A DNA stretch of 64,000 nt from Quadrisphaera granulorum (lineage in GTDB: Bacteria; Actinomycetota; Actinomycetes; Actinomycetales; Quadrisphaeraceae): assembly GCF_003149145.1 (NCBI RefSeq), contig NZ_QGDQ01000008.1, forward strand, positions 62,001 through 126,000, given 5' to 3'. Below, in pieces: positions 30,508-42,529 of this stretch. How positions within the stretch are numbered: the stretch's first letter is position 1; each line of letters opens with the position of its first letter. The notes under the pieces were generated by a model. It was given only the letters and a program-made list of their open reading frames with translations, did no database searches and was not told the DNA's origin. Position numbers and translations under genes: made by a program.

Positions 30508-30696
30508 ACCCGCCGCGCCCTCGTGCCCGGTGGGGCCCGTGGCGCTGTGGCTTTCCGGGCGATCACTGCCGTGTTTCGACCGTGAGGTCTTCACTGTCGC
30601 AGCGCCGCTGACGGTGATCCGGTGTCGTTGTCGGTCCCTCCTGCCGCGGAAAGACTCCCTGTCAGGCCGAGACCCGCTCGCCGGAAGGACCAGGTC

Positions 30697-31698
30697 ATGA
30701 GCAGCCAGACCGTGGGCGTCGTGCCCGTCATCGACATCAGCCCGCTCTTCGGAGACGACCTCGAGGCGCGCCGCGCCGTCGGCAAGGAGCTCGACGCGGC
30801 GTGCCGCGAGATCGGCTTCTTCCAGATCACCGGCCACGGCCTCTCCGACGCGGTGATCAAGGAGGTCTACGACACCGCCAAGGAGTTCTTCGCCCAGCCC
30901 CTGGCCGAGAAGCGCAAGGTCGCCCAGCCCAACCCCAAGACCGTCCGCGGGTACACCGCCGTCGGCGAGCAGGCCTTCGCCTACAACGAGGACACCTCCG
31001 CCCCCGGTGACCTGCACGAGAAGTTCGACGTCGGCCCGTTCGTGGAGTCCGACGACCCGTACTTCTCCGTGGACGTGGCCGGCCCCCACTTCATCCCCAA
31101 CCAGTGGCCCGAGCACCCCGCGCGCATGCAGCTGGCGTGGGAGGACTACTTCGAGGCGGCCGACGCGCTGTGCCGCACGATCATGCGCGGCTTCGCGCTC
31201 GGCCTCGACCTGCCCGAGGACTTCTTCGAGGACAAGATTGACAAGGACATCTCGATGCTGCGGGCCATCCACTACCCGCACCGCGACGAGCCGCCGCTGC
31301 CGGGGCAGATGCGCGCTGGAGCCCACACCGACTACGGCAGCCTCACCATCGTGCGGCCGGAGGAGGCCCCGGGTGGTCTGCAGGTCTTCACCCAGGACGG
31401 CGACTGGAAGGACGTCCCGGTGATCCCCGGGGCGCTCGTGGTGAACATCGGCGACCTCATGGCGCAGTGGACCAACGACCAGTGGATCTCCACCCGCCAC
31501 CGGGTGGCCAACCCGCCCCGTGACGTGGTGGCCAACACCGAGCGCATGTCCATCGTCTTCTTCCACCAACCCAACTACGACGCCGTCATCGAGGTGCTCC
31601 CCACCTGCGTCGAACCCGGCGTGGCCCCGAAGTACGCCCCGATCACTTCGGGCGACCACCTCACCATGAAGTTCGAGAAGACCCACCAGAGGGTCTGA
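30697..31698 (+). CDS. Isopenicillin-N-synthase-like Fe(II) oxygenase (1)
   Basis: 333 residues from ATG 30697 (GGAAGGA 9 nt before). N-terminal DIOX_N part VPVIDISPLF and EIGFFQITGHG; iron ligands H210 and D212 (AHTDYGS) and H268 (STRHRV); R283-x-S285 for the 2-oxoglutarate or substrate carboxylate. It is a 2-oxoglutarate/Fe(II) type hydroxylase; substrate unknown. First gene of a run: ferredoxin follows after 4 bp, then an ABC importer. A second family member lies at 36215-37207 and a third at 61710. Confidence 0.88.
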   Translation: MSSQTVGVVPVIDISPLFGDDLEARRAVGKELDAACREIGFFQITGHGLSDAVIKEVYDTAKEFFAQPLAEKRKVAQPNPKTVRGYTAVGEQAFAYNEDTSAPGDLHEKFDVGPFVESDDPYFSVDVAGPHFIPNQWPEHPARMQLAWEDYFEAADALCRTIMRGFALGLDLPEDFFEDKIDKDISMLRAIHYPHRDEPPLPGQMRAGAHTDYGSLTIVRPEEAPGGLQVFTQDGDWKDVPVIPGALVVNIGDLMAQWTNDQWISTRHRVANPPRDVVANTERMSIVFFHQPNYDAVIEVLPTCVEPGVAPKYAPITSGDHLTMKFEKTHQRV

Positions 31699-31702
31699 GC
31701 CG

Positions 31703-31996
31703 ATGGGTCCCGACCAGCCGGCACCCGCACGCGGCACCTTCAGCGTGGTCCTGCAGCGGACCGGTCGGGTGCTCGACGTGCCCGACGACCGCTCGATCCT
31801 CGACGTGGTCGAGCAGGTGGTGGACGTGCCCTTCACCTGCCGCGCGGGCGACTGCGGGTCGTGCGTGACCACGCTGCTGGCCGGGACCCCCGACTACCGC
31901 AACACCGTCCTGTCACCGCGGGCCCGAGCCGCCGGCCGGCGCATCGCGCTGTGCGTCGACAGGTCACTCACCCCGACCCTGGAGCTGGACCTGTGA
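31703..31996 (+). CDS. Stand-alone plant-type 2Fe-2S ferredoxin
   Basis: 97 residues. Cluster ligands CRAGDCGSC and a fourth cysteine in RIALCVDRS fit the 2Fe-2S domain that usually ends class IA reductases (VanB-like), but here no flavin or NAD domain is attached. It could pass electrons to a monooxygenase of this locus; the reductase is not in the window. The stop overlaps the ABC ATPase start by 4 bp. Confidence 0.85.
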   Translation: MGPDQPAPARGTFSVVLQRTGRVLDVPDDRSILDVVEQVVDVPFTCRAGDCGSCVTTLLAGTPDYRNTVLSPRARAAGRRIALCVDRSLTPTLELDL

Positions 31997-33522
31997 CCGA
32001 CAGCAACGACCAGAGCGGGAAGACGGCAGCCATCGACTGCCGCGGCGTGTCCAAGGCCTACCCGGGCGTCACCGCGCTCACGGATGTGTCCCTGCGTCTG
32101 GTCCCCGGGGAAGTGCACGCCCTGCTGGGGGAGAACGGCGCCGGAAAGTCGACCCTCGTCAAGATCCTTACGGGCGTCGAGCGGCCTGACCGAGGCCACG
32201 TCAGGGTGGCCGGTCGGGACCTGCACCCGCACACCCCCGTCACTGCCCGCAGGCTGGGGGTGCGGCTGCTCCCGCAGGAGCGGCATGTGGCGCCCGACCT
32301 GTCCGTGGCCGAGAACGTCATGCTCGGCGGCCTGCCCCGCACCGGGCTCGGGCTCGTCTCCGGTCGGGCCGTACGCTCGGCCGCTCAGCAGCATCTCGAC
32401 ACCCTCGGCGTGGACGTCGACGCCTCCTATCGTGCCGGCGACCTCACCGCCGCCCAGCAGCAGCTGGTCGAGCTGGCGCGGGTGACCGCCCGCCCGGCCC
32501 GGGTGCTCGTGCTCGACGAGCCGACGGCCTCCCTGGCGGGAGATGAGGTGGAGGTGCTCTTCGGCGTTGTCCGGCGCCTGCGCGCCACCGGCACGTCGGT
32601 CCTCTACATTTCCCACCACCTGCACGAGGTCTTCGCCCTCGCCGACCAGGTGACCGTGCTCCGCAACGGCTCGCTGGTCCACCAGACGTCCGTGGCCGAC
32701 ACGGACGCCGAGACCCTCCTCTCCCACGTCTTCGCCGCCGACCTCGACCGCGGCCGCCTCGACCGGGCACCCCGGGCCGCCCGCACCGAGCCGGTCATGG
32801 CCCTGCGGGGCGTGACGGCCCCCGGGCTCAGTGCGCCGGTCAATCTGGAGGTCCACCCCGGGGAGGTGCTGGCGCTGTCTGGCCCTGCAGGCTCGGGTAC
32901 CACCGCGGTGGCCGAGCTGCTGGCGGGTGCCCGTAGACCCGTCACTGGCCAGGTCCTGCTGCGCGGAGCGCCCGCGCCGCGCACCCGCAGCGGGGCGGCG
33001 AGCGCCGGCATCGGGTTCGTGCCGGCCGACCGCAAGCGCGACGGCCTCCTGCTCGAGCGCTCGATCAGCGAGAACGTCTGGCTGGGACCGGCGGCGACGT
33101 CGTGGCTGCACCGCCCGCGCCGCGCCCACGAGGGCGCATGCAGGGTGCTCGCGGCCGCCCGGGCCTCCACCACCGACAGCACCCGGCCGGTCCGCTCCCT
33201 CTCGGGTGGCAACCAGCAGCGCGTCGTCTTCGGGCGATGGCTCGCGACCTCCTGCAGCGTCCTCGTGCTCGACCAGCCGACGGCGGGCGTCGACATCGGC
33301 GCCAAGTTCGCCATCTACCGCCAACTGCTGGATCTGACGGCGCAGGGCATGGCCGTGGTGGTCGTCTCCAGCGACTACGAGGAAATCTCCGCCCTGGCCG
33401 ACCGCGTGGTCGTCATGACCGCGGGCCGCACGTCCGCGGAGGTGGACGGGGCGAGCACCACTCCCGAGGAGCTCTTTGCCCTCGAGTCCCCCACCGAGCG
33501 CGACCTCCAGGAGGCCTTGTGA
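31993..33522 (+). CDS. RbsA-like double ATPase of ribose-type ABC importer
   Basis: 509 residues with two ATPase halves. First: Walker A GENGAGKST, signature LTAAQQQLVELARV (degenerate), Walker B VLVLDEPTASL. Second: weak Walker A GPAGSGTTAV (lysine lost), signature LSGGNQQRVVFGRW, and VLVLDQPTAGVDIGAK. The mixed pattern with one defective site is normal for RbsA/XylG/MglA proteins. It starts and ends in 4-bp overlaps, so it is in one unit with the ferredoxin and the permease. Confidence 0.92.
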   Translation: MTDSNDQSGKTAAIDCRGVSKAYPGVTALTDVSLRLVPGEVHALLGENGAGKSTLVKILTGVERPDRGHVRVAGRDLHPHTPVTARRLGVRLLPQERHVAPDLSVAENVMLGGLPRTGLGLVSGRAVRSAAQQHLDTLGVDVDASYRAGDLTAAQQQLVELARVTARPARVLVLDEPTASLAGDEVEVLFGVVRRLRATGTSVLYISHHLHEVFALADQVTVLRNGSLVHQTSVADTDAETLLSHVFAADLDRGRLDRAPRAARTEPVMALRGVTAPGLSAPVNLEVHPGEVLALSGPAGSGTTAVAELLAGARRPVTGQVLLRGAPAPRTRSGAASAGIGFVPADRKRDGLLLERSISENVWLGPAATSWLHRPRRAHEGACRVLAAARASTTDSTRPVRSLSGGNQQRVVFGRWLATSCSVLVLDQPTAGVDIGAKFAIYRQLLDLTAQGMAVVVVSSDYEEISALADRVVVMTAGRTSAEVDGASTTPEELFALESPTERDLQEAL

Positions 33523-34616
33523 GCAGCAACTCCCTCACCCGAGCGAGCTCGACGGAGACGGGGACCGCAGCCGAGGCCGGCGTCGCCGTCCCGACTCGCA
33601 CCCCGGCGCGGCTGCAGTTCACCACCGTCGCGGCTGCCCGCTCGATCGTGCCGCTGCTCGTGGTCGTCGTGGTGCTCTCCTGGGTCACTGGAAGCCAGAA
33701 CCCGGCGTTCCTCACCTCCGTCAACGCGCAGAACGTGCTCGCTCAGGTGGCCGTGCTCGGCATCCTCGCCGTCGGGCAGACCTTCCTCGTGGTGGGAGGC
33801 CAGATCGACCTGTCGGTCGGCAGCCTGGTCAGCCTCGTTGGGGTGGTCGCCGCGCGGTGCTTCGCCGACGGGTGGAGCACGCCCGCCGTCGTGGTCCTCG
33901 CCCTGGCGATCGGCGCCGCGACGGGTCTCGTCTGGGGGACCGCCGTCGCCCTGCTCGACGTGCCACCCTTCATCCTCACCCTCGGCGGGCTCAGCGTGCT
34001 GGGCTCGCTCGCCCTGGTCCTGTCAGACAACACCCCGGTGCCAGTGCGCGACGGCCTGTCGTCCTGGGGGTTCGGTACCTGGGGGCCCCTGCGCACACCG
34101 GTCGCGATGCTCCTGCTTGTCGTGGTGCTCGGCGCGCTCCTGCTGCACTTCACCCGCTTCGGCCGGACCACCTTCGCCCTCGGCTCCAGCCGCTCGACCA
34201 CCTTCCTCGCCGGCGTCCCCGTGAAGCGCCACCTCGTGCTCCTGTACGTCGGCAACAGCACGCTCGCCGCCTTCGCCGGTCTCCTCATGATGGCCCGCAT
34301 CGCCTCCGGAGACCCTCGCGCGGGACTCGGCCTGGAGCTGTCCGTCATCGCCGTCGTGGTGCTCGGAGGGGCGACGCTCGCCGGGGGCCGCGGCACCGTG
34401 GTGGGCACCTTCGCCGGCGTGCTCGTGCTCGGTGTGGTCAGCGCCTCCCTGACGTTCCTGCAGGTTCCGGGCGCGTTCCAGTCGCTCGTCTCCGGAGGCA
34501 TCCTCGTGCTCGCCGTCGTCGCCACCGCGCTCGCGGAGCGCCGCGCAGGCGGCTCGGGGACGGCGGGATGGGCCGGCGCCCTGCGCCGGTCGCTGCCGCG
34601 CCTGAAGCGCACCTGA
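33519..34616 (+). CDS. RbsC-like permease
   Basis: 365 residues. About nine membrane segments; the family fingerprints are GILAVGQTFLVVGGQIDLSV (with GSLVSLVGVVAA following), PPFILTLGGLSVLGSLALV, and AVVVLGGATLAGGRGTV. It forms the pore with the RbsA-like ATPase before it and the binding protein after it. Ribose-type importers carry pentoses, autoinducers or nucleosides; here the cargo is unknown. Confidence 0.92.
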   Translation: MSSNSLTRASSTETGTAAEAGVAVPTRTPARLQFTTVAAARSIVPLLVVVVVLSWVTGSQNPAFLTSVNAQNVLAQVAVLGILAVGQTFLVVGGQIDLSVGSLVSLVGVVAARCFADGWSTPAVVVLALAIGAATGLVWGTAVALLDVPPFILTLGGLSVLGSLALVLSDNTPVPVRDGLSSWGFGTWGPLRTPVAMLLLVVVLGALLLHFTRFGRTTFALGSSRSTTFLAGVPVKRHLVLLYVGNSTLAAFAGLLMMARIASGDPRAGLGLELSVIAVVVLGGATLAGGRGTVVGTFAGVLVLGVVSASLTFLQVPGAFQSLVSGGILVLAVVATALAERRAGGSGTAGWAGALRRSLPRLKRT

Positions 34617-34758: not shown

Positions 34759-35829
34759 GTGTCCGAGCACCGCCCCGCCCCCACCGCGCCGCGCTCCGGT
34801 CTGACCGCCCAGCCCAGCCGGCGCTCGCTCCTGCTCGCCGGCGGCCTGCTGACCACGAGCGGCCTGCTCGCTGCCTGCGGCTCCTCGTCCACCGCCAGCG
34901 CAGGAGCCAGCAGCGGCAGCGTTGCCGGCAGCGGCGGGGGGACCGGCGTGATCGGCATCTCACTCAACGGCAACAACGCTTATTCGAGCTACGTCGCCGA
35001 GGGCGTCTACAAGGTGCTCGACGGCACCGGCTTCACCGCCACCGGCGTGCAGAACAACTTCAGCTCCGCCACCGAGCTCAGCAACGTGCAGAACCTCCTG
35101 GCCCAGGGCATCAAGGGCCTCGTGGTGCTGCCCGCTGACGCCACCACCATCGCCAAGGCGGCCCAGCTCTGCGTTCAGCAGCAGGTACCTGTGGGCAACG
35201 CCCTGTGGCCTGGCAGTGGCGAGGGCGCGGACGACTTCGCCGGCAAGGCCACGCTCGACAGCGTGGAGGGCGGCAAGATGATCGGCGAGTGGCTCAAGGC
35301 CAACGCCAAGCCCGGCCCGGTGGTGGTTGTCCAGGGGATCGTGGGACAGGGCTTCTCCGAGAAGATCGACGAGGGCCTCGACGCGGCCCTCGCCGGGTCG
35401 GGCTTCTCCGTGGTGGTGCGCGAGCAGGGCTTCTTCGCCCGGGACAAGGCCACTCAGATCGTCCAGACGGCCCTACAGGCCCATCCGGACGTGACGGCGA
35501 TCGTGGCCTACTCGGCCTCGATGTCCAACGGCATCGCAGCCTTCCTCAAGGGGCAGGGGACCACCACCATCACCCACGTCTCCAGCGACGCCGACGATGA
35601 GATGATCACGTGGCTCAAGACGCCGTACCTGGCGGCCACCCGGTACTACTCCGCCGCCCAGACCGGCGTGGTGGCGGCCCAGGCCGTGCTGGCGAAGATC
35701 CAGGGGACGACGTCGAGCATGCCCGACACCATCGACCAGGTCATGGCCACGAAGGACACCATCGACGACGTCGTCGCCAAGAACCCCTACCGCTACGAGC
35801 AGTACGCGGCGCTGGCCGCGAAGATCTGA
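34759..35829 (+). CDS. RbsB-like substrate-binding lipoprotein
   Basis: 356 residues from GTG 34759. Tat-type signal SRRSLLLAGGL with a lipobox ending LLAAC (C40). Periplasmic-binding fold type I: GVIGISLNGNNAYSS, NLLAQGIKGLVVLPADATTI, ADDFAGKATLDSVEGGKMIGEW, DVTAIVAYSASMSNGIAAFL, and VSSDADDEM. Export by Tat suggests folding with a cofactor or simply lineage habit. It is the recognition subunit of the importer. Confidence 0.9.
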   Translation: MSEHRPAPTAPRSGLTAQPSRRSLLLAGGLLTTSGLLAACGSSSTASAGASSGSVAGSGGGTGVIGISLNGNNAYSSYVAEGVYKVLDGTGFTATGVQNNFSSATELSNVQNLLAQGIKGLVVLPADATTIAKAAQLCVQQQVPVGNALWPGSGEGADDFAGKATLDSVEGGKMIGEWLKANAKPGPVVVVQGIVGQGFSEKIDEGLDAALAGSGFSVVVREQGFFARDKATQIVQTALQAHPDVTAIVAYSASMSNGIAAFLKGQGTTTITHVSSDADDEMITWLKTPYLAATRYYSAAQTGVVAAQAVLAKIQGTTSSMPDTIDQVMATKDTIDDVVAKNPYRYEQYAALAAKI

Positions 35830-35837
35830 GCCCTGCC

Positions 35838-36236
35838 GTGGTCACCCTGTCGTTCACCAGCCTCGTGGTGCCCGACCCCGTGCGCTCCTCCGCCTTCTAC
35901 GAGGACGTGTTCGGCCTGGCCGAGGTCACCGAGCTGACCTCGGCGTGGTTCCGCGGCCTCCACCTGGGAGGCATCGTCCTCGGGTTCAGCCACCCCCACG
36001 CCTACGAGCTCCTGGGGCTGGCCGAGCCGCCGCCCGGGACTGACGCCGTCAGGACCTTCCTCACGTTCGAGGCCGCGTCCGAGGCCGAGGTCGACGCCCT
36101 CACGCGCAGGGCCACCGACCGCGGAGCTGTGCTGGCCGCAGGACCCGGGCGCACGTACTACGGCGCCTGGCAGTCGGTGCTGCTGGACCCCGACGGGCAC
36201 GCGTTCCGCATCAATCACCTGCGGCTGGGGTCGTGA
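35838..36236 (+). CDS. VOC-family (glyoxalase-like) protein
   Basis: 132 residues from GTG 35838. One VOC unit with LSFTSLVVPDPVRSSAFYED, VLGFSHPHAYELLGL and LLDPDGHAFRINHL (paired beta-alpha-beta-beta-beta modules). A metal site is possible but the ligands are not certain. Its 3' end overlaps the 3' end of the convergent oxygenase gene by 22 bp. It could be a lyase, epimerase or dioxygenase in the same pathway. Confidence 0.8.
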   Translation: MVTLSFTSLVVPDPVRSSAFYEDVFGLAEVTELTSAWFRGLHLGGIVLGFSHPHAYELLGLAEPPPGTDAVRTFLTFEAASEAEVDALTRRATDRGAVLAAGPGRTYYGAWQSVLLDPDGHAFRINHLRLGS

Positions 36237-37207
36237 GGAGACCCCACCGAGGTCTGCCGCAGGTACTTCTCCCTCAGGTGCTCGGCAGCGGTGGGGGCGT
36301 CGGGCCAGCCGGACGCGTCCCCGGCCAGCTCGGGCAGCACGTCGACGGGCTCCTCGGCGTTCGGGTGCGCGTAGAAGGCGACCGCAAGCCGGTCGCTGTC
36401 CCACGCCACGTCCCGGCGGGGGTTTACCACCCGGTGCAACGTCGCCGGCCACCGGTGGTCGGTCCACTCCGTCCACAGGTCACCGACCATGACCACCACC
36501 GCGCCGGGGATCACCGGGACGTCGACCCACTCGCCCCCGGAGTCGAGCACCTGCAGAGCACCCGGCCGCGGCTCCGCCACGCTCAGCGTGAACGCCCCGT
36601 AGTCGGAGTGCACCCCCGCCCTCAGCTGCCCGGGCAGGGGCGGCTCGGGCTGGCTCGGGTAGTACAGGGCCCGCAGCATGCTGATCTCCCGGTCGAACCG
36701 CGCCGCCATCGCCTCGGGGGAGACGCCCAGGCCCTGCGCTGCGGCGCGGGTCAGAGCGAGGTTGGTCTCGGCGAAGGCGCGGTACGCCCGGACCCACACC
36801 TCCCGAAAGCCGGGGAGTGCCGGCCACCGGTTCGGCGCGTGCTCGGGCGTGCCGTCTGCCCATCCCTCGCCGAGGCCGACCTCCGGCCCGATGTCGAACT
36901 TCTCCTTGAGGTCGGCGGGCGACTCCTCGTCCAGGGAGAACGTGATGCTCTCGCTGCCCACGGGCGCCCAGCCGCGCACCTGGTCCGGTGCCGGCTGCGC
37001 GACGGTCGCCTTCACCGGGGTTGGCATCGCGAAGAACCGGCGGGTCGCGCGGAACAGGTCCTCCACGAGCGCGGCGGAGATGTCATGACCCGTCACCTGG
37101 AAGAAGCCGACCTCTTCGCACGCCCCGCTCACCGCCCGCGCGACCCCGCGGTCGCCGCCGGACCCACGGCGAGCAGCCGAGATGTCAATGACCGGGATCG
37201 TCCGCAC
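36215..37207 (-). CDS. Isopenicillin-N-synthase-like Fe(II) oxygenase (2)
   Basis: 330 residues from GTG 37207. IPVIDISAARR, EVGFFQVTGHD; iron ligands H200 and D202 (VHSDYGA) and H258 (ATLHRV). The usual Arg-x-Ser is R273-L-A275, so the serine is lost. It is about as long as, and clearly a paralogue of, oxygenase 1 (shared WRTEPPLPGQLRAG-type loop: PPLPGQLRAGVHSDYGAF). It is divergent from the PucR gene, 69 bp away, and probably controlled by it. Confidence 0.88.
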   Translation of the reverse strand: MRTIPVIDISAARRGSGGDRGVARAVSGACEEVGFFQVTGHDISAALVEDLFRATRRFFAMPTPVKATVAQPAPDQVRGWAPVGSESITFSLDEESPADLKEKFDIGPEVGLGEGWADGTPEHAPNRWPALPGFREVWVRAYRAFAETNLALTRAAAQGLGVSPEAMAARFDREISMLRALYYPSQPEPPLPGQLRAGVHSDYGAFTLSVAEPRPGALQVLDSGGEWVDVPVIPGAVVVMVGDLWTEWTDHRWPATLHRVVNPRRDVAWDSDRLAVAFYAHPNAEEPVDVLPELAGDASGWPDAPTAAEHLREKYLRQTSVGSPHDPSRR

Positions 37208-37276: not shown

Positions 37277-38821
37277 GTGCCGATGTCGATCAGCGGTCTG
37301 GCGGCCGCTGCTGGTTTGACGGTGGTCAGCACGGGGGCTGGCGCCGACCGGCCGGTCACCGGCGTGCGCGTCGAAGGGAAACCGGGTCGGGACGACGGTC
37401 CCACCGTCCTGGTGCTCCCCTGGAAGCCGGTGCGCCGTGGAGCTCCGCTTCCACCACTGGCCGACCGCTTAGAGGGCGTGCTGCGCACGGCCGCTACCGC
37501 CGTCGTCGTCGTGCCAGCGGACCGCTCGGTCCACCCGCCAGCGGAGCTGACCGCGTTGTTCGCAGGATCACCGACCGCGGTGCTGTGGGGCCCGCCGCAG
37601 GAGCCGGAGGCACTGGCCGCCCGTCTCCTCTCCCTCATGGGGCGCGCGAGCGCGACGGGTCGGGAAGCCGACGACATGGTCTTAACCCTGCTGGAAGGGG
37701 ACCTCGATGTCGCCAGTCTCACCGCCGCGCTAGCTGACGCGCTGGGGGCTGACGTGACGGTGACCGCCGCGTCGAGGGGGCAGGGCACGTCTGACGGCGT
37801 GGAGGTGGCGCACGCGCGCGGTGCCGGGTTCAGCGGCGCAGAGCCGTCATTCGACACGGCCAGCCCCCTCGTGGACGCGCCTGACGGCGCCGAGCCACCT
37901 GCTGCCACCGACGTCGTGCTGGACCTGCGGCACGCCGGGCGCCTGATCGGTGCGGTGCGCCTCGCCCGCGCTGCGCCGCTGTCCGCTCCGGAGCTCCACC
38001 ACGCGGGGCTGACCGCGCGGCTGCTCGCTCTGAGCCTCAGCGCCCACGAGGGTGACCACCGCCACCGGGCCGCCGCTCGGCCGGCCCTGGCCGCCATCCT
38101 CAACGACGACCTCGCAGCCCGGGAGAACGAGATCCGCCGCAGCCGCAGGCTCGGCACCTTCCCCGTGCGCTCCGCCGTCTTCCTGGCCGTCGTCCCGTTC
38201 GGCACCAGCTTGGGCAGCACCGGCCTGCAGCGGCTCTCGCGGGAGGTCGAGGCCGCGGTGCTGCGCATCGATCCCAGGGCGGTCGTGATCGAGCACGAGG
38301 GCTACGTGGTGCTCGTCGTCGGGGCCGACCTCGACCTCGACCGGGTGCAGCGGACCGTGTACCGGGGGGTGAGCCTGCCGCTGTGCGTGGGTGCCAGCAG
38401 GCCCGTCGACGACGTCCGCCGCTTCGCCGGGGCCTTCCGCCAGGCGCAGCGCGCCGTGGTCATCGCCAAGGCGCTCGGCTGGGCCAACCGCGTGGCCACC
38501 TACGACTCCCTGGGCGTGACCCGCCTGCTCCACCAGCTGCCGGAGTACGAGCGGCGCGAGTTCACCCGCGAGGTGCTGGGCGCCGTCGCTGGCACGGGGG
38601 ATGTGGCCGCCGAGGGGCGCCGGGTGCTCCGCAGCTACCGGGCCGCGAACGGCAACTTCAGCGAGGCCGCACGGCAGGTGTTCCTGCACCACAACACCTA
38701 TCGGCAGCGCATCGTGCGCCTGCAGGAGCAGCTGGGCGACTTCGTCAACGACCCGGAGGTGCGGCTGTCGGTGTTCGTGGCCCTCGACCTGCACCGCCTC
38801 GACAACGACCGCGACGCCTGA
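37277..38821 (+). CDS. PucR-family transcriptional regulator
   Basis: 514 residues from GTG 37277 (GGAGG at 37264, 8 nt before); ATG 37283 is the alternative. The N-terminal PucR-like ligand domain (SISGLAAAAGLTVVSTGAGA) is followed by a GGDEF-like central domain (CVGASRPVDDVRRFAGAFRQ) and the C-terminal HTH_30 region (VLRSYRAANGNFSEAARQVF, LHHNTYRQRIVRLQEQLG). PucR regulators control purine, allantoin and related nitrogen-compound catabolism. Here it probably controls the surrounding oxygenase, importer and urease-like genes (inference). Confidence 0.85.
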   Translation: MPMSISGLAAAAGLTVVSTGAGADRPVTGVRVEGKPGRDDGPTVLVLPWKPVRRGAPLPPLADRLEGVLRTAATAVVVVPADRSVHPPAELTALFAGSPTAVLWGPPQEPEALAARLLSLMGRASATGREADDMVLTLLEGDLDVASLTAALADALGADVTVTAASRGQGTSDGVEVAHARGAGFSGAEPSFDTASPLVDAPDGAEPPAATDVVLDLRHAGRLIGAVRLARAAPLSAPELHHAGLTARLLALSLSAHEGDHRHRAAARPALAAILNDDLAARENEIRRSRRLGTFPVRSAVFLAVVPFGTSLGSTGLQRLSREVEAAVLRIDPRAVVIEHEGYVVLVVGADLDLDRVQRTVYRGVSLPLCVGASRPVDDVRRFAGAFRQAQRAVVIAKALGWANRVATYDSLGVTRLLHQLPEYERREFTREVLGAVAGTGDVAAEGRRVLRSYRAANGNFSEAARQVFLHHNTYRQRIVRLQEQLGDFVNDPEVRLSVFVALDLHRLDNDRDA

Positions 38822-38887: not shown

Positions 38888-39931
38888 ATGGACTTCGGCG
38901 TCGTCCTCCAGCTCACGCCTCCGTCCTCGCGCGCCGTCGAGCTCGTGCGGCAGGCGGAGACCCACGGCTTCACCCACGCGTGGACCTTCGACTCCCACCT
39001 GCTGTGGCAGGAGCCGTACGTCGTGCACAGCCAGATGCTCGCGGCCACCCGCAAGATCGTGGTCGGCCCGATGGTGACTAACCCCGCCACACGGGACTGG
39101 ACGGTCACGGCTTCCACCTACGCCACGCTCAACGAGATGTACGGCAATCGCACCGTCTGCGGCATCGGCCGCGGCGACTCGGCCGTGCGCACGCTCGCGG
39201 GGAAGCCGACCACGGTCGCGGCCCTGCGCGACGCGGTCCACGTGATCCGGGAGCTGGGCAACGGGCGCAGCGTCGACCACAACGGGCGCACGCTGACCCT
39301 GCCCTGGACGGCCGGGCTGAGTCCCGCGCCGTCGCTGGAGGTGTGGGTGGCCGCCTACGGGCCCAAGATGCTGGAGCTCACCGGTCAGGTGGCTGACGGG
39401 TTCATCCTCCAGCTCGCCGACCCCGACATCGCCCGCTGGATGATCGCCGCGGTCCGCGAGGCCGCCGAGCGCGCCGGCCGGGACCCGATGTCCATCACGT
39501 TCTGCGTGGCGGCGCCCGCCTACGTGGGGCCGGAGGAGGAGCGGGCCCACATGCTCGACCAGTGCCGCTGGTTCGGCGGGATGGTGGGCAACCACGTCGC
39601 CGACATCGTGGGGCGCTACGGAGTCGAGGGGGCTGACGGCGGCGTGCCCAGGGCCCTCACCGACTACATCGAGGGTCGGCAGGGGTACGACTACAACGAG
39701 CACGGCAAGGCGGGCAACAGCCACGTCGACTTTGTGCCCGACGCCATCGTCGACAGGTTCTGCCTGGTCGGGCCCGTCGAACGCCACGTCGAGCGCCTGC
39801 GCGAGCTGGAGGAGCTGGGCGTGGACCAGTTCGCCCTCTATCTCCAGCACGATGCCCGGGAGTCGACGCTCGAGGCCTACGGCACCCGTGTGCTGCCCCA
39901 GATGCGGCGTACGGTCACCGCCATCCGCTGA
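38888..39931 (+). CDS. LLM-class F420/flavin-dependent oxidoreductase
   Basis: 347 residues from ATG 38888. Luciferase-like fold: VELVRQAETHGFTHAWTFDS, RKIVVGPMVTNPATRDW, GIGRGDSAVRTLAGKP and the DPDIARWMIAAVREAAERAG helix. The pattern fits F420-dependent relatives of the CPS_4043 type, sometimes found beside amidohydrolases. It stands directly before the urease-like genes in the same direction, 28 bp upstream. A monooxygenase attack on a C-N or C-S bond before hydrolysis is conceivable. Confidence 0.85.
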   Translation: MDFGVVLQLTPPSSRAVELVRQAETHGFTHAWTFDSHLLWQEPYVVHSQMLAATRKIVVGPMVTNPATRDWTVTASTYATLNEMYGNRTVCGIGRGDSAVRTLAGKPTTVAALRDAVHVIRELGNGRSVDHNGRTLTLPWTAGLSPAPSLEVWVAAYGPKMLELTGQVADGFILQLADPDIARWMIAAVREAAERAGRDPMSITFCVAAPAYVGPEEERAHMLDQCRWFGGMVGNHVADIVGRYGVEGADGGVPRALTDYIEGRQGYDYNEHGKAGNSHVDFVPDAIVDRFCLVGPVERHVERLRELEELGVDQFALYLQHDARESTLEAYGTRVLPQMRRTVTAIR

Positions 39932-39959: not shown

Positions 39960-40787
39960 ATGACGCTGACACCCCGCGACCTCGACAGGCTGACCGTGTT
40001 CAGCCTCGCGGAGCTCGCCCGCCGCCGCCGGGGGCGGGGCACGCTGCTTGGCCAGGTCGAGGCCGTGGGCCTCATCTGCGACGAGATGCACGAGGCCGCG
40101 CGCGACGGCGCCTCCTACGAGGAGGTCACCGAGCTGGGATCGCGGTGCGTGACGACGGCGGACGTCATGCCCGGCGTTGCGGAGATGGTGCCGATCATCT
40201 ACCTGGAGGTGTCCTTCGCGGACGGCACCAAGCTGGTGACGGTCCGCCGGCCCATCCGCGAACCCGCCGAGCCGGCGCGCCCCGAGTCGGCTGGCTCCGG
40301 CACCACCAGCCCCGACACCACGGGCACCGTGCCGATCTCGCCCCTCGACGGCCCTGTGGGTCAGGTGCTCCCTGCTGCCGGGACCCTGCAGAGCCCGCAG
40401 GCGCCGACGCGGGAGGTGGAGGTCACCAACACCTCCGCGTGGCCCGTGGTCATCACGTCGCACTTCCACTTCTTCGAGGCCAACAAGCAGCTCGCCTTCG
40501 ACAGGGAGAAAGCGTTTGGGCTGCACCTCGACATCCCCGCCGGGGCATCGGCGCGCTTCGAGCCAGGGGAGACCAAGCTGGTGCGCCTCACGCCCTACCG
40601 CGGCGACCGGGCGGTCTTCGGCTTCAACGACCTCACCAACTGCGTGCTCGGCGACGGCGAGGAGCTGGAGGCGCAGCGCGTCGCGGCCCTGGAACGCGCT
40701 CGGTCGCAGGGGTACCTCGACACCGCAGCCACCGCCCACACCGACAGCACCGACAGCACCGACAGCGCTGAGGGGAGCCGGCCGTGA
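39960..40787 (+). CDS. Fused urease-like gamma-beta subunit
   Basis: 275 residues from ATG 39960. Residues 1-100 match the gamma subunit (LTPRDLDRLTVFSLAELARR, DVMPGVAEMVPIIYLEVSFADGTKLVTV); a 50-residue Ser/Thr/Pro linker follows; residues 155-245 match the beta subunit (VVITSHFHFFEANKQLAFDR, GLHLDIPAGASARFEPGETK, RAVFGFN). The tail repeats TDSTDSTDS. Gamma-beta fusions are known in Helicobacter and actinobacteria. It overlaps the alpha-like gene by 4 bp. Confidence 0.9.
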   Translation: MTLTPRDLDRLTVFSLAELARRRRGRGTLLGQVEAVGLICDEMHEAARDGASYEEVTELGSRCVTTADVMPGVAEMVPIIYLEVSFADGTKLVTVRRPIREPAEPARPESAGSGTTSPDTTGTVPISPLDGPVGQVLPAAGTLQSPQAPTREVEVTNTSAWPVVITSHFHFFEANKQLAFDREKAFGLHLDIPAGASARFEPGETKLVRLTPYRGDRAVFGFNDLTNCVLGDGEELEAQRVAALERARSQGYLDTAATAHTDSTDSTDSAEGSRP

Positions 40788-42529
40788 GCTGGACGATGGA
40801 CCACTCCGAGTACCACCGGCTGTACGGGCCCACCACGGGCGACCGGATCCGCCTGGCCGACACCAACCTCGTCGCGCAAGTGGAGTCCGACCACACCGCC
40901 TACGGCGACGAGCCCCTGTGGGGGTTCGGGAAGACCATCCGCGACTCGATGGGCATGTCCAGCCACCTCGAGCGCCAGTCAGCGCGCCTGCCCGACAGGC
41001 GAGCGAGCGACAGCACGATGGACCTCATCATCGCCAACGTCGTGGTGGTGGATCCGCTGCTGGGCGTCATCAAGACGAACATCGGCATCAAGGACGGGCG
41101 CATCGCCGGCATCGGCCGCGCCGGCAACCCCGACATCACCGACGACATCGAGCTGGTCGCCGGAGCCAACACCGGCTGGATCATGGGCGAGGGGATGATC
41201 GCCACCCCCGGCATCGTCGACCCCCACGTGCACCTGGCGACCACGAGCCTCATCCCCGCCGCGCTCTCGGCGGGCACCACGACGATCGTGGGGATGGGCT
41301 ACGGCCACGTCTCCGACCTGGGCGTCAACCCGCAGCGCCACTTCCACCTCATGATGCAGGCGTGGGAGGGCTACCCCCTCAACGTCTCGCTGCTCGCCCG
41401 CGGCAGCGCCTCCGACCGCGCGTCGCTGGAGCGCAACGTCGAGATGGGCTGCGGCGGGCTGAAGATCCACGAAGACACCGCCAGCTTCACCTCGGTCATC
41501 GACAGGGCGCTGTCGGTGGCGGACGACGTCGACATCCCGGTGTGCGTCCACACCGACTCCAACCAGGAGGGTGGGGAGCTCGCGGACACTCTCGACGCCA
41601 TCGCCGGGCGGACCATCCACGCGTACCACATCGAAGGCCTCGGGGGTGGTCACCCCAACGTGCTGGAGCTGGCCTCGCAGCACGCGGTGCTGGGCAGCTC
41701 GACGACGCCGACCATCCCCTACTCGACCAACTCCTACGCCGAGTACGGCGAGATGAAGATGGCGGTGCACCGCATGCACAGCCACCTCGAGGAGGATCTC
41801 GCCTCGCTGGCCTGGCGCGGCCGGGGCAGCACGGTGGCCGCCGAGTCCGTGCTCCACGACCTCGGGGCGATCGCGATGATGTCGAGCGATTCCCAGGGCA
41901 TGGGCCGCATCGGCGAGGTGTCCCTGCGGACCTGGCAGATGGCTCACCGCATGAAGGAGGCCACCGGCGCCACCGACCCGGTGACGGGGGAGTCACCGGG
42001 GCACGACAACGCACGGATCCTGCGCTACCTCGCCAAGCTGACGATCAACCCCGCGATCGCGCAGGGACTGGCGCACGAGGTCGGCTCGCTGGCGGTCGGC
42101 AAGCTCGCCGACGTCGTCCTGTGGCGGCCGGAGTCGTTCGGCGTCAAGCCGCAGCTCGTGGTGAAGAGCGGTTTCGTCGTGTGGGGCCCGGTCGGTGGCG
42201 GCAACGACTCCACGCGGCTCGGGCAGCCGCAGGTCTACCGGCCGATGTTCGGCTCCTACGGCGTCGCCCCCAGCAGCCTGGGCGTGGCGTTCGTCGGGCA
42301 GCCGGCGCTCGATGCCGGGGTGGAGGGGAAGCTGCGCGCCGAGGGGGTGCGGCGTCGCCTGTCCGCGGTGCGCGACTCCCGCGGCCTGACCAAGTCCGAC
42401 TTCGTGCGCAACAACGCCTCACCCCAGGTGCGGGTCTCCCCGGACTCCCTGGAGGTCGAGGTGGACGGCCGCATGGTCGACCTCCCGCCCGCCGAGACCC
42501 TGCCGCTGACCAACCGCTACTTCCTGTGA
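40784..42529 (+). CDS. Urease-like alpha subunit with altered active site
   Basis: 581 residues, usual length about 567. All metal ligands of urease align: H148 and H150 (DPHVH), K227 (GLKIHED, carbamylated in urease), H256, H282 and D369 (SSDSQ). The flap His is kept (H329) but the flap Cys, nearly universal, is V328, and the GGTGPAAGTxATTCTPG pocket motif is replaced by GMGYGHVSDLGVNPQRH; SQAMGR is SQGMGR. R345 is kept. So the metal centre should form, but the substrate pocket differs. No ureD/E/F/G genes are in the window. The product may act on urea, or on another urea-like amide. Confidence 0.88.
   Translation: MSWTMDHSEYHRLYGPTTGDRIRLADTNLVAQVESDHTAYGDEPLWGFGKTIRDSMGMSSHLERQSARLPDRRASDSTMDLIIANVVVVDPLLGVIKTNIGIKDGRIAGIGRAGNPDITDDIELVAGANTGWIMGEGMIATPGIVDPHVHLATTSLIPAALSAGTTTIVGMGYGHVSDLGVNPQRHFHLMMQAWEGYPLNVSLLARGSASDRASLERNVEMGCGGLKIHEDTASFTSVIDRALSVADDVDIPVCVHTDSNQEGGELADTLDAIAGRTIHAYHIEGLGGGHPNVLELASQHAVLGSSTTPTIPYSTNSYAEYGEMKMAVHRMHSHLEEDLASLAWRGRGSTVAAESVLHDLGAIAMMSSDSQGMGRIGEVSLRTWQMAHRMKEATGATDPVTGESPGHDNARILRYLAKLTINPAIAQGLAHEVGSLAVGKLADVVLWRPESFGVKPQLVVKSGFVVWGPVGGGNDSTRLGQPQVYRPMFGSYGVAPSSLGVAFVGQPALDAGVEGKLRAEGVRRRLSAVRDSRGLTKSDFVRNNASPQVRVSPDSLEVEVDGRMVDLPPAETLPLTNRYFL

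Follow-up and report, generated by a model that had tools for sequence, protein, structure and literature searches.

A urease-like protein of Quadrisphaera granulorum in a separate branch of the urease family, with a predicted metal core and an altered substrate pocket

Urease, the textbook nickel enzyme, depends on dedicated helpers and acts on essentially a single substrate. The urease UreA2B2 of Helicobacter mustelae is accessory-independent, and the urease of Bacillus subtilis has been reported to be active without accessory genes. The H. mustelae enzyme is described as an iron urease, and represents a precedent for another metal. The window considered here, that is, the whole 64,000-nucleotide stretch of Quadrisphaera granulorum DNA that was analysed, contains a ureC-like gene and a fused ureA-ureB partner (Table 1). 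The original prediction held that the encoded UreC keeps the metal centre of urease and has lost its substrate pocket; it was silent on the UreAB partner, on the wider branch to which the protein belongs and on the accessory genes that are missing from some of the genomes with branch members.

The gene pair, its metal site and its pocket

From the perspective of its architecture, the window UreC carries the domains PF00449 and PF01979, both above their cut-offs, is accompanied by UreA and UreB partners, as expected of the urease structural family, and aligns end to end with solved ureases. Its reading frame has no internal stops and retains all active-site residues. The markers shared with its closest relatives (class A, defined below), together with dN/dS ratios of about 0.18-0.33 across ten class A pairs (a simple count that strong GC bias may disturb), indicate that the gene is neither a chance frame nor an error. 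Structure prediction of the window UreC gave mean pLDDT values of 32.3 from the single sequence and 35.8 from an eight-row alignment, and both models were discarded. The ureA-ureB fusion of the window does not seem to extend to two class A loci (L007:9259-9989 and L009:16-674), in which the two genes look like distinct frames that overlap.

Table 1. Genes and sequence features of the ureC-like locus, in window coordinates
Feature	Position	Strand	Remarks
2-oxoglutarate/Fe(II) oxygenase	30622..31698	+	true start possibly further in; putative cluster member
ABC ATPase, sugar type	31993..33522	+	putative cluster member
ABC permease, sugar type	33519..34616	+	putative cluster member
ABC substrate-binding protein, sugar type	34759..35829	+	putative cluster member
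Glyoxalase-family protein	35841..36236	+	putative cluster member
2-oxoglutarate/Fe(II) oxygenase	36215..37207	-	divergent from regulator; putative cluster member
PucR-type regulator	37283..38821	+	HTH_30 and GGDEF_2; 66 bases upstream of LLM gene
LLM class F420-type oxidoreductase	38888..39931	+	TIGR03842 over cut-off; 28 bases upstream of ureAB
Fused ureA-ureB partner gene	39960..40787	+	Pfam Urease_gamma and Urease_beta, NCBIfam; 4-base overlap with ureC
ureC-like gene	40784..42529	+	581 aa, urease alpha type; GTG start
Remodelled pocket loop, residues 170-182 (GMGYGHVSDLGVN)	41291..41329	+	replaces GGGTGPA...TTCTPG; four residues shorter
Flap codons V328 (Cys in most ureases) and H329 (flap His, kept)	41765..41770	+	from alignment
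D369 (metal ligand) to G372 (Ala366 in S. pasteurii numbering)	41888..41899	+	from alignment

The predicted two-metal ligand set and the lysine that would be carbamylated (H148, H150, K227, H256, H282 and D369) occupy columns that are invariant in all 38 rows of the alignment, so that, at the level of sequence, this part of the original prediction holds. The columns of His222, Asp224, His323, Arg339 and Gly280 (S. pasteurii numbers) are likewise invariant in the 38 rows, and besides the six metal-site residues the window protein keeps His229, Asp231, His329 and Arg345. According to a review (PMC7433671), the side chains of His222, Asp224, His323 and Arg339 of urease take part in hydrogen bonding to the substrate and in locking the flap; Ala170, Ala366 and Gly280 work through their backbone carbonyls, largely so in the case of Ala170 and Ala366.

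On the substrate side, GMGYGHVSDLGVNP stands where ordinary ureases have GGGTGPA...TTCTPG, with four residues fewer, and the TTCTPG stretch is gone, as had been proposed. The alignment likewise bears out the other two marker changes: V328 falls in the column of the flap cysteine (Cys in nine of 11 ordinary rows), next to H329 in that of the flap histidine, and SQAMGR reads SQGMGR. Additional differences are R330 at the second His of the CHH motif, T232 at the position of a Trp and one residue fewer after GGGH. The earlier view of an intact metal centre and altered substrate-side segments is thus upheld, but the claim that the substrate pocket is not intact was overstated, as His222, Asp224, His323, Arg339 and Gly280 are all kept. 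Since the contribution of Ala170 and Ala366 comes largely from backbone carbonyls and the urea-binding side chains are kept, the pocket changes alone do not exclude urea as a substrate.

Relatives of the window protein and their place in the urease family

Searches with tblastn reveal five relatives at 71-79% identity (class A), from Kineococcus rubinsiae, three Pseudonocardia and one Chloroflexi MAG; these values depend on the method, the Kineococcus copy reaching 82% in genome sampling and 79% by tblastn. The four long class A relatives have GMGYGHV, the flap Val and QGMGR in common. The fifth, in Pseudonocardia sp. 73-21 (L010:10001-10303), comprises only the last 104 residues of ureC; it adjoins genes in common with locus L008, ureAB was not found with it, and the pair was apparently lost at this site. 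Identity falls to about 46-54% in further members, which come from sampled genomes and plasmids and form classes B and C. Three partly overlapping scans, of 396, 394 and 396 genomes, made up the sampling, and within it class A appears only in the window genome and in G148; two of the scans used E <= 1e-155, and weaker class C members and ordinary ureases are unlisted there.

In a 51-row tree, 23 ordinary ureases separate from 28 branch members with a support of 100/100, and every one of 200 bootstrap trees (100%) recovers the split. Support is also 100/100 for each of classes A, B and C, and 94/87 for the union of A and B; in a 38-row tree the ordinary side receives 100/99. Neither tree includes the L010 remnant or L012, which comes from the same genome as L006. 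Both trees were rooted at the midpoint, and the branch could be either sister to, or nested in, the ordinary ureases. The scores against family models point in the same direction. The window UreC reaches 625.2 bits against TIGR01792, the curated NCBI equivalog model for urease, and stays below its cut-off of 680 bits. The class B and class C proteins scored, one of each, also miss it (582 and 616.6), whereas the second, canonical UreC of the window genome passes with 880.7 bits. The broader subfamily model PRK13207 is passed by all four proteins scored, with 695.8 for the window UreC against a cut-off of 354. The phylogeny and alignment proposed as a check on the original prediction hence do not place the window UreC among ordinary ureases: judged by its sequence, it belongs to a separate branch of the family, in which the metal core is kept and the substrate pocket is rebuilt.

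One UreC with a long branch (L056), whose placement is unsure, shows a different pocket loop again (TAGFEEP and a larger deletion) and is possibly a further class; it lies at L068:9456-11168 in G775, a genome without UreD, UreF and UreG.

Every one of the 26 rows from classes A-C carries the shortened loop with Gly180, and none of the 11 ordinary rows does. Taken one at a time, the other markers are less clear-cut. The exact TTCTPG occurs in only three of 11 ordinary rows, others having variants such as TTVTPG and TTITPG, and L057 and L070 lack it; the flap Cys is found in 20 of 23 (the exceptions being L014 with Thr, L046 with Ala and L085 with Ser); and QGMGR is present in three of 23 (L057, L070 and L085). 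Some of these ureases are linked to accessory genes. L070, on a Methylobacterium radiotolerans plasmid, has SQGMGR and no TTCTPG, yet is surrounded by ureE, ureF, ureG, ureD and urtA, and L014 and L046, which lack the flap Cys, have UreD, UreF and UreG close by on the same contig. The use of any single marker as diagnostic of the branch was rejected, given that accessory-linked ureases carry one or two of them, and for the same reason the markers of the original prediction do not by themselves exclude a urease. It is jointly, and not singly, that the markers define a branch.

Accessory genes and genomic neighbourhoods

Two ureC genes are present in the window genome: contig C8 carries the branch copy and contig C16 a canonical one. 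The tests for accessory genes covered UreD, UreF and UreG, and in this genome all three were found only on C16, beside the canonical ureC, and none on C8. Of the 22 distinct genomes whose branch member is complete and which entered the UreD test (G148 and G396, with identical places and scores, were counted once), UreD is present in 15 and absent from seven, and in none of the 22 does it lie within 19 kb of the branch member. In 13 of the 15 positive genomes UreD is on another contig than the branch member; the two in which they share a contig are G078, at a distance of about 19 kb and with a canonical UreC beside UreD, and G728, at about 475 kb. Kineococcus rubinsiae has two UreD for four ureC genes, half of which are branch members. 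G400, which carries the L010 remnant and stands outside the count of 22, has one UreD on another contig and no UreF or UreG over the cut-off. As for the ordinary ureases, UreD was seen nearby in eight of 23 rows (L003, L014, L046, L070, L072, L073, L083 and L084); of the remainder, the record of L071 lists only ureG, L085 is at a record end, L087 is unannotated and the other 12 were outside this check.

In each of the seven genomes without UreD (G064, G092, G106, G048, G653, G775 and the MAG G399), the sole UreC is the branch member. UreF is absent from all seven, the window genome giving a match as a positive control, and UreG is absent from the five to which its test extended (all but G106 and G048). 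Completeness is at least 90% in six of the seven, with no figure for G399. The absence of UreD and UreF from these seven genomes is the firmest new fact of the analysis. Within class A, the MAG is the only member whose genome lacks UreD, the other class A genomes having it elsewhere, so the accessory independence of class A is deduced from the branch as a whole. As the window genome itself has UreD, UreF and UreG on another contig, the window copy would be independent of them only by extension.

Regarding the window locus, the gaps of 66 and 28 bases followed by an overlap suggest that the genes from the regulator to ureC constitute one operon. A conserved neighbourhood was not found for the window copy: of the window genes, only the UreAB-UreC pair recurs in the loci of Kineococcus and Pseudonocardia (the L009 contig, of 3.9 kb, says little). 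Relatives of the individual neighbours occur in other settings: a 60% relative of the LLM protein adjoins a D-hydantoinase gene, and relatives of the oxygenase at 30622 are found in Tistrella (54%), with a glyoxalase relative and a PnrA-type importer, and in Rhizobium (39%), near nucleoside hydrolase and pseudouridine-5'-phosphate glycosidase genes. The TIGR03842 LLM genes of Paracoccus (L075:9001-10002) and Leisingera (L076:9001-10002) come right after the F420 biosynthesis genes cofG, cofH, cofC, cofE and npdG, an arrangement that speaks for F420 use by this family.

The neighbourhoods of classes B and C are of other kinds. In unannotated loci, genes were called with a GC-position script, which misplaces starts and at times calls the antisense frame, and the class A, B and C neighbours named here were re-searched with tblastn. 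Class B stretches contain matches to a PF07969 amidohydrolase and an MFS transporter in seven of seven cases (the amidohydrolase match in L043 spans 73 residues at a contig end) and a PucR-type regulator in six of the seven. Outside the plasmid clusters, six of eight class C stretches (L042, L064, L065, L066, L067 and L069) have a PF04371 deiminase that adjoins ureAB or lies about 3 kb away, which suggests a guanidino-to-ureido-to-amine route; the one class C deiminase scanned does not reach the cut-off of the agmatine deiminase equivalog. A class C pair is also present on four Streptomycetaceae plasmids (L047:9264-11644, L049:7300-9665, L074:9285-11665 and L086:7291-9677). In the three that are annotated, the class C genes come after adenylation- and condensation-domain genes, and the unannotated fourth has the same gene families. 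The order is adenylation, condensation, phosphotransferase, B12-binding-like protein, ureAB and ureC, with an oxygenase-family gene next in the three compared, and the setting looks like a non-ribosomal peptide cluster.

Proposed function and comparison with known systems

The explanation that we tentatively favour is that UreAB-UreC is a urease-fold two-metal hydrolase of a distinct branch, whose natural substrate would most likely be a substituted urea (a ureido compound) from the surrounding catabolic cluster and not free urea, and whose metal, probably inserted without the nickel-loading machinery, may not be nickel. The kept residues point to urease-type chemistry, in which a carbamylated lysine would bridge two metals and a metal-bound hydroxide would attack the C(=O)-N bond. 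The rebuilt Ala170 loop and the missing flap Cys suggest another substrate shape. The substituted urea could be made by the cluster, with its importer, two 2-oxoglutarate oxygenases, F420-type oxidoreductase and PucR regulator; both this pathway and the joint action of the whole cluster are what we infer. A substituted urea is the best single guess because neighbour families make ureido compounds (the class C deiminase, and the hydantoinase beside the LLM relative). The existence of branch members in genomes without UreD and UreF argues for metal loading without nickel machinery, possibly of a metal other than nickel. Against this explanation stand the UreD, UreF and UreG of the window genome, window neighbours that are not common to other class A loci, the kept urea-binding residues and the sub-threshold score of the scanned deiminase.

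A rival explanation is a true urease isozyme. Such an enzyme would hydrolyse urea, its altered pocket would do no more than adjust affinity or metal use, and it would mature either unaided or by means of the canonical accessory set that the genome encodes elsewhere. We regard this as quite possible, though on the unlikely side. The full-length match to solved ureases, the retention of all urea-binding and flap-locking side chains and the accessory-linked ureases with single marker changes are all consistent with it, and the B. subtilis control genome, with a UreC match and no UreD or UreF match, offers a precedent without accessory genes. The fully supported separate branch, the second, canonical urease that the genome already has with its accessory genes, and the lack of a urea transporter among the window neighbours argue in the opposite direction. 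A hydantoinase-like role, in which a cyclic ureide or another amide, and not an open-chain urea, is opened or hydrolysed, is improbable: the D-hydantoinase gene adjoining the LLM relative and the importer (PnrA-type), nucleoside and pseudouridine genes near the oxygenase relatives speak for it, but the flap-lock and urea-side residues are kept and the window holds no linked hydantoinase. A decaying or non-catalytic paralogue, for which the 104-residue remnant without detected ureAB might be cited, is very hard to reconcile with the dN/dS ratios, the stop-free frame and the complete active-site residues.

Extended to the whole branch, the substituted-urea reading would mean that the urease family has a second branch, free of accessory proteins and non-urease in function, with a self-loaded and probably non-nickel metal pair. 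Its members would hydrolyse substituted ureas in different pathways: nucleobase-like catabolism in the window, the PucR/amidohydrolase/MFS group in class B, deiminase-linked clusters in class C and the non-ribosomal peptide cluster in the Streptomycetaceae plasmids. This generalisation is speculative and rather doubtful as a whole. Irrespective of it, a conserved branch with a kept core in genomes lacking UreD and UreF provides natural test objects for the helper-free formation of a two-metal, carbamylated-lysine site and for what restricts urease to urea. The public annotation of branch genes as 'urease subunit alpha' should not count as evidence of urea use. A description of such a branch was not found in searches of an open-licence library, a scope that leaves most subscription papers aside and makes this weak evidence of novelty.

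Compared with the nickel urease UreABC (EC 3.5.1.5) of Klebsiella aerogenes and Sporosarcina pasteurii, the window pair is alike in its metal ligands, in His222, Asp224, His323, Arg339 and Gly280 and in its UreA and UreB partners, and differs in its separate branch, the Val at the flap Cys, the rebuilt Ala170 loop and the lack of adjoining accessory genes. The H. mustelae UreA2B2 (3qga, 3qgk) has the urease fold in common with the window protein, but the alignment shows the flap CHH, SQAMGR and GGGTGP of ordinary ureases unchanged in its sequence. The B. subtilis control genome resembles the branch genomes without UreD and UreF in gene presence, the one respect in which they were likened. Finally, D-hydantoinase and dihydropyrimidinase belong to the same amidohydrolase superfamily, and the window UreC gives a weak, short match to 1nfg and weak model scores; these enzymes are, however, without a UreAB partner, and the window UreC falls far below their cut-offs.
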